Both the position numbers and the translations under genes were made by a program. Positions 43,341-44,037 of a stretch of 64,000 nucleotides of DNA are shown here, one piece after another (within the stretch, counting starts at the first letter, position 1; each line of letters opens with the position of its first letter). The DNA is from Gemmatimonadota bacterium (GTDB taxonomy: Bacteria > Gemmatimonadota > Gemmatimonadetes > Gemmatimonadales > GWC2-71-9), in contig SHZU01000002.1 of the NCBI GenBank assembly GCA_009692115.1, positions 1 through 64,000 of the forward strand, in the 5' to 3' direction. The notes under the pieces were generated by a model. The model saw nothing but the letters and a program-made list of their open reading frames with translations, made no database searches and had not been told where the DNA came from.

Positions 43341-43467
43341 AGCCCGGGCAACTTAGGCCCGGACCACCTGGGAGGGTAGGCCGTTCCCTCGGGGTTTCGC
43401 GGAACCTTCCGGCCCGGCGATATTGCCGGGGTCCGCTCACCTCGAACCCCCCCCGAAGGAGGTCGCC

Positions 43468-44037
43468 TTGAGGAGTACCCTGGTCTGGGCCGCCGCGCTC
43501 GCCGTTGGAGTCGCGTCGGCGTCAGGCGCCCAAGACAAACCGACGCCGCTGGCGATCGGCGCTGCTGCCCCGGAATTTACCCTGAGCGCCGCCACCAAGG
43601 ACGGTGTCTCGCCGAAAGCCGTGAGTTTGTTGGATTTCCGGGGCCAAACCGTCGTGCTGGCTTTCTTTTACAAAGCCCGGACCGGTGGCTGAACAGCTCA
43701 AATGGACGCGTACCGTGATCAGTACGCGACGCTCTTCAAAGATGGCAAAGGCGTGAAGGTTTTTGGGGTCAGTGTCGATGCCGATACGGCGCTGGCGAGT
43801 TGGGCCAAGGACAAGAATTACCCGGTGACCTTCTTGAGCGATCTTGGTGCCGAGGTCGGGAAGAAGTACGGCGTGGCGATCCAGACGCGGATTGGCATGT
43901 TGGATCATCGGACCGTGTACGTGATTGACGGAACCGGCAAGATTGCCCACGTGATATCGCCGTTTCGGGAAACCGATCCGACCCAGTATACCGAGTTGGG
44001 GCAGGCGGTCGCGACGGCAAGCGGCGGTCGCCGGTAG
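43468..44037 (+). CDS. Peroxiredoxin (AhpC/TSA, BCP-like) with in-frame UGA at the peroxidatic position: candidate selenoprotein
   Basis: A single frame runs 43468-44037, interrupted only by TGA at 43690-43692. Start is TTG at 43468 behind AAGGAGG (43456-43462); residues 1-24 are a signal peptide (LVWAAALAVGVASASGA). The thioredoxin fold follows: LAIGAAAPEFTLSAATKDG, TVVLAFFYKARTGG, then UGA, then TAQMDAYRDQYATLF and VKVFGVSVDADTALASWAKD. In BCP/AhpC-type peroxiredoxins that position is the peroxidatic Cys (xGCT), so UGA as selenocysteine (U75) gives xGUT, a natural Sec site. The sequence after the UGA keeps full peroxiredoxin conservation and has no ribosome site of its own. A hairpin 14 nt after the UGA fits a bacterial SECIS. 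SelA/B/C/D genes are not in this window. Alternative: a nonsense mutation. Confidence 0.75.
43707..43728 (+). promoter_or_regulatory. Candidate bacterial SECIS hairpin
   Basis: CGCGTAC (43707-43713) pairs perfectly with GTACGCG (43722-43728) around the loop CGTGATCA. The stem begins 14 nt after the UGA (43690-43692) and the loop G residues lie about 23-25 nt from it. This is inside the distance range of known bacterial SECIS elements, which need an apical stem with a G-containing loop. The hairpin is within coding sequence, as required. Confidence 0.6.

Follow-up and report, generated by a model that had tools for sequence, protein, structure and literature searches.

A probable selenocysteine-containing peroxiredoxin of Gemmatimonadota, with a conserved hairpin downstream of its in-frame UGA

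A peroxiredoxin frame interrupted by a single UGA

Does a UGA at the catalytic codon of a bacterial peroxiredoxin end translation, or is it read as selenocysteine (Sec)? The question is raised by a gene on the forward strand of the 64,000-nucleotide stretch of DNA analysed here (the window). The frame runs from 43468 to 44034, is closed by a TAG terminator at 44035–44037 and contains a TGA at 43690–43692 as its sole interruption. The sequence-only reading had placed this TGA at the peroxidatic Cys, and both translation and alignment to solved peroxiredoxins confirmed this placement. With TGA translated as U, the gene (43468–44037) opens with a TTG start and encodes 189 residues, and codon 75, in the context RTGG-U-TAQM, aligns with the peroxidatic Cys of structures such as 2ywn. 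As ordinary gene calling halts at a TGA, this selenoperoxiredoxin would be missed.

The TTG start is preceded by a good ribosome binding site, AAGGAGGT, at 43456–43463, 4 nt upstream on the same strand. Reading of the sequence revealed no comparable site upstream of the internal ATG at 43702, which bears out the earlier suggestion that the part downstream of the UGA has no ribosome site of its own. The first codons (43468–43530, forward strand) encode a probable signal peptide, LRSTLVWAAALAVGVASASGA, judged by eye only, and some homologues carry a lipobox-like Cys in this region. Both features are consistent with an exported protein. TGA also serves as an ordinary stop, terminating 11 of the 33 long non-overlapping open reading frames of the window, some of which may be spurious; it was not found inside the neighbouring genes within the window. 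These neighbours, an ABC-F ATPase and ThrC/ThrB, are conserved but functionally unrelated, and so show orthology without indicating a partner.

Read through the UGA, the product is a full peroxiredoxin, as expected from the earlier observation that conservation continues past this codon. It matches the Pfam AhpC-TSA family with E=1.3e-27 (96.7 bits against a curated cut-off of 26) and Redoxin with 1.3e-22. AlphaFold models the fold with confidence (pLDDT 92.6, pTM 0.88), placing Sec near the start of helix 2, like the peroxidatic Cys of peroxiredoxins; the PDB entries that match the model best are Bcp4, Prx1-3 and AhpE-like proteins. Profile, model and PDB matches together assign the protein to the AhpC-TSA family, with a peroxiredoxin fold and the catalytic residue at a helix start. 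In the PxxxTxxC/U motif, Thr at −3 is kept and Pro at −7 is Tyr; many homologues have Tyr, Phe or Ile at −7 and others, including some Sec homologues, have Pro.

Apart from Sec, the protein contains no Cys, and residue +3 is Gln, leaving it without a second redox residue. Nearly all of the 56 distinct aligned homologues likewise lack any further Cys in the mature protein, the Sec or Cys of the active site aside. Lacking another Cys, the enzyme would have to be a '1-Sec' peroxidase that relies on an external thiol or protein to reduce its selenenic acid. Family membership and sequence suggest peroxidase activity. The same genome also encodes other AhpC-TSA-family proteins without a TGA.

Sec machinery and the exchange of UGA and Cys codons

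The genome to which the window belongs (3.1 Mb, 97% complete) has named relatives that are Gemmatimonadota/Gemmatimonadales MAGs. In line with the prediction that the organism has a Sec system, the genome search found tRNA-Sec (67 bits; called tRNA-SeC with anticodon tca by ARAGORN), SelB (303 bits over the full model), SelA (525 bits) and SelD (379 bits), all above curated cut-offs. SelD carries a TGA of its own at the GAGU position (HGAGUASK), and the alpha subunit of formate dehydrogenase (FdhA) scores 674 bits with one TGA, its classical site reading SCNRTUHAPS. These findings give the organism at least three selenoproteins, namely the selenoperoxiredoxin, SelD and FdhA.

The SelD locus (L019:1465-2535, TGA at 1531; match at 67916-68833 of contig C8 in G000) has a strong perfect hairpin after its TGA, AACTCGGA-CCG-TCCGAGTT, unlike the peroxiredoxin hairpin in sequence. 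FdhA (L122) lies on the minus strand of G000 contig C10 at 144467-146332.

Among 60 relatives, the best homologue mostly contains exactly one TGA, at the same codon in those aligned. The 56 distinct homologues have TGA in 41 cases, TGC in 14 and AGC in one distant paralogue, so that the alignment check proposed with the sequence-only reading returned UGA or Cys at exactly the Sec codon. Dozens of genera share this TGA at this codon, purifying selection acts on either side of it, and the protein downstream of the UGA is clearly under selection. An in-frame UGA that aligns with Cys in homologues and is flanked by conservation is the pattern of a selenoprotein gene. The contig scan for relatives used peptides exact to the query, and the distribution is established within Gemmatimonadota.

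Tandem peroxiredoxin genes occur in two genomes. In G053 (L068) a Cys copy stands beside a Sec copy, and G276 (L135) has two Sec copies, 603 nt apart, that both carry the exact hairpin. In another relative, the copy at G241:C22:3194-3679 has a TAA besides the TGA and is either a decayed gene or an assembly error.

The catalytic codon follows the Sec system. SelB scores above the curated cut-off in 48 of 61 genomes, leaving 13 without. Six of these (G002, G043, G045, G047, G057 and G058, each with a completeness of 95% or more) lack SelB at the curated level, SelA and a strong tRNA-Sec, and their aligned homologues have Cys at the Sec codon. G057 and G058 do show tRNA-Sec matches of 48–50 bits, but these were taken for other long-arm tRNAs, since true ones score 68–78 bits and G032 has a 48-bit match besides its 78-bit one. 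Five UGA carriers (G007, G012, G032, G042 and G048) are also without SelB above the cut-off. They retain tRNA-Sec (68–78 bits), and SelA is present in G012, G032 and G042, as a fragment only in G007 and not in G048; in G007, a fragment of SelB also lies where a contig ends. As these carriers keep tRNA-Sec and mostly SelA, the missing SelB probably reflects assembly gaps.

Genome G002 belongs to the window's own genus and has the same ABC-F neighbour. In the tree, its Cys copy falls within the Sec forms as the sister of the window's Sec clade (97/95). The best reading is a reversion from Sec to Cys in which the hairpin decayed and the Sec system was lost, although rooting and several inner branches are weak and the tree does not settle the number of reversions. 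G002 offers a natural experiment within one genus, in which a Cys copy and a decayed hairpin accompany the absence of the whole Sec system. Its direction is opposite to that given for peroxiredoxins in an early survey, which by our reading lists for them five Cys-to-Sec changes and no Sec-to-Cys change (PMC1794560, Table 1).

A hairpin conserved in the UGA forms

Downstream of the UGA, a 22-nt hairpin occupies 43707–43728 on the forward strand. It begins 14 nt past the TGA and comprises a 7-bp stem (CGCGTAC/GTACGCG) and an 8-nt, G-containing loop, CGTGATCA, just as the sequence-only reading had described. The published model of bacterial SECIS elements specifies an apical loop of 3–9 nt with a G in loop positions 1–2, an upper stem of 4–16 bp, a UGA-to-loop distance of 16–37 nt and an MFE of at most −7.5 kcal/mol (PMC13188914, Fig. 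2A). The hairpin lies within every one of these limits, with an 8-nt loop, CGUGAUCA, in which G is second and followed by U, a 7-bp stem, a spacing of 21 nt and an MFE of −10.5 kcal/mol. Rfam contained no element matching it.

In a single sequence such a hairpin is weak evidence, because 18 of the 1507 TGA trinucleotides in the GC-rich window (~1%) are followed by a perfect 7-bp hairpin 9–18 nt downstream, and the local fold energy is ordinary for the composition (z about −1, or −0.3 for a shorter stretch). The original argument, that chance would rarely put a nonsense mutation in the catalytic codon and a correctly placed hairpin behind it, was therefore overstated as to the hairpin. It is the comparative evidence, not the lone hairpin, that decides for recoding, and conservation across species lifts the observation far above chance.

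Of the 41 Sec genes, 39 share an identical 18-nt core, GCGTACCGTGATCAGTAC. Synonymous entropy is zero at codons +6, +7, +8, +10 and +11 and 0.17 bits at +9, whereas other conserved residues of the same genes show 0.3–2.0 bits. Under the codon usage of these genes, the hairpin's codon string for AYRDQY has an expected probability of 0.007 per sequence. The full set of seven pairs is present in 40 of 41 Sec genes (97.6%), compared with 18% after synonymous recoding. The outer pair joins the third base of codon +5 to that of codon +12 and occurs as C-G in 23 genes, G-C in 9 and U-A in 8, giving 17 double changes against 3.6 in shuffles. This covariation runs through synonymous Ala codons, as Ala codon +12 matches whatever base residue +5 gives. 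In the Cys/Ser homologues (n=15) the hairpin is absent, with a mean of 4.0 pairs against 3.9 by chance. Sec sequences within a lineage are related and these counts are not independent events, so the inference is carried by the contrast with neighbouring codons and with the Cys forms. Synonymous constraint and covariation confined to the Sec forms point to a hairpin selected as RNA and not merely as peptide.

Beyond the alignment, 221 of 395 Gemmatimonadota genomes, from 78 of 138 genera, contain the 20-mer GCGTACCGTGATCAGTACGC without a mismatch, while its reversed control occurs in none of the genomes listed. All 13 occurrences inspected, from 12 further genomes of several families, are UGA peroxiredoxins with the element in the same place. 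Relatives of one family (f5; L124-L128) have lost the outermost pair, with A opposite A, and keep the inner six pairs and the loop unchanged; the universal core is therefore six pairs plus the loop.

Three other accounts of these data can be given. If the TGA were a true stop in a former Cys codon, through decay to a pseudogene, nonsense mutation or sequencing error, one base change could leave a single TGA in an intact frame, and UGA is indeed an ordinary stop in this genome, as the window's reading frames show. Such an event would not place a TGA at one and the same codon in dozens of genera, with the sequence on either side under purifying selection, nor would it go with a Sec machinery and a hairpin that is kept at synonymous sites and covaries. 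Recurrence across independently sequenced genomes refutes this account, and its probability is close to nil. Insertion of another amino acid, by a near-cognate tRNA or a reassigned UGA, would suit a downstream protein so clearly under selection. Hairpins can stimulate read-through, and here the hairpin would be such a stimulator rather than a SECIS. We nevertheless regard this as very improbable: the exchange of catalytic Cys and Sec tracks the presence and absence of SelA, SelB and tRNA-Sec, within the window TGA acts as a normal stop and is absent inside the neighbours, and a non-chalcogen residue would abolish peroxidatic chemistry.

The stem-loop might also be an unselected by-product of the conserved peptide AYRDQYA, with Sec inserted via another signal. 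On its own, the peptide predicts 5.8 of the 7 pairs, and Cys forms conserve parts of it; yet codon choice is fixed only in the Sec forms, even for the rare CGT (~9% of Arg codons), the complete stem is far more frequent than synonymous recoding would leave it, and the outer pair covaries through synonymous codons. We give this account scarcely any weight. Recoding of the UGA as Sec, by comparison, is strongly supported by the machinery, the conserved UGA and a hairpin conserved and covarying only in UGA forms, and the sequence-only reading gains support accordingly from comparative data; none of the contrary findings it had named beforehand, such as a genome without SelB and tRNA-Sec, was obtained. 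With codon and hairpin common to hundreds of related bacteria, the selenoprotein is almost certainly real.

Very probably, then, the gene encodes an exported peroxiredoxin whose UGA codon 75 is translated as Sec via SelB and the hairpin, which would yield a '1-Sec' peroxidase. SelB with Sec-tRNA(Sec) would bind the hairpin past the UGA, and Sec would be inserted instead of termination. In the folded enzyme, probably periplasmic, peroxides would be attacked by the selenolate, located where helix 2 begins. The likely cycle leads from selenolate and peroxide to selenenic acid, which an external thiol or protein would reduce.

A puzzle remains in the rigidity of the element. The third-base pairs of GCG/TAC and TAC/CAG could covary synonymously but never change in the 41 Sec genes, and the two wobble bases of the loop show one change in 41; the outermost pair, by contrast, is free to covary. 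Neither base pairing nor the peptide requires stem pairs and loop bases to be as fixed as these are. We tentatively consider, as a less probable option, that the 20-nt element is read by sequence plus shape, with the SelB of Gemmatimonadota or another factor recognising specific mRNA bases. The hairpins of SelD and FdhA in the same genome differ from it in sequence. Between UGA and hairpin, 35 of 41 Sec genes use CAA as the Gln codon at +3 (43699–43701 in the window), even though CAG is about six times commoner than CAA in these genes; this preference is possibly a further context requirement.

Relation to known peroxiredoxins

Sec-containing peroxiredoxins (PF00578, TxxU) are an experimentally verified family with Eubacterium acidaminophilum as the reference (2026 review PMC13188914, Table 1, ref. 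83), and in the Sargasso Sea set they formed the second most abundant previously known selenoprotein family (PMC1088965). The window protein shares their Pfam family, peroxidatic Sec, Thr at −3, UGA with downstream hairpin, and Cys homologues. Unlike them, it is apparently exported, has no other Cys, is associated with one near-invariant SECIS and is confined to Gemmatimonadota in the present analysis.

Its closest full-length relatives in sequence and fold are BCP/PrxQ (NF006960) and AhpE-type 1-Cys peroxiredoxins, with fold matches to Bcp4 (3hjp, TM 0.79/0.85) and M. tuberculosis AhpE (5c04, TM 0.80/0.88). It differs from both in having Sec for the peroxidatic Cys, a signal peptide (by eye) and no resolving Cys. 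It scores 48.1 bits against the NCBIfam PrxU equivalog NF040737 (cut-off 270) and 76.3 bits against the BCP equivalog NF006960 (cut-off 140); scores below both cut-offs indicate a separate branch. The peroxiredoxin-like thiol:disulfide oxidoreductase selenoproteins also combine PF00578 with an active-site Sec (PMC13188914, PMC1088965), but read UxxC or UxxU, whereas the window protein has Gln at +3 and no second redox residue.

In the literature searched, of which coverage was partial, we found no description of a selenoperoxiredoxin of Gemmatimonadota, and the selenoprotein surveys and reviews searched (PMC13188914, PMC5029168, PMC1794560, PMC12013277) do not name the phylum. Given that TxxU Sec-peroxiredoxins are already established, the window gene represents a new branch of a known kind, apparently exported, with a single Sec and spread across the phylum. 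Gemmatimonadota thereby gain a phylum-wide selenoprotein, and the near-invariant hairpin of its gene is a ready object for studying how SelB recognises RNA. If the 20-nt element is read by sequence, it perhaps gives the selenoperoxiredoxin mRNA priority for Sec.
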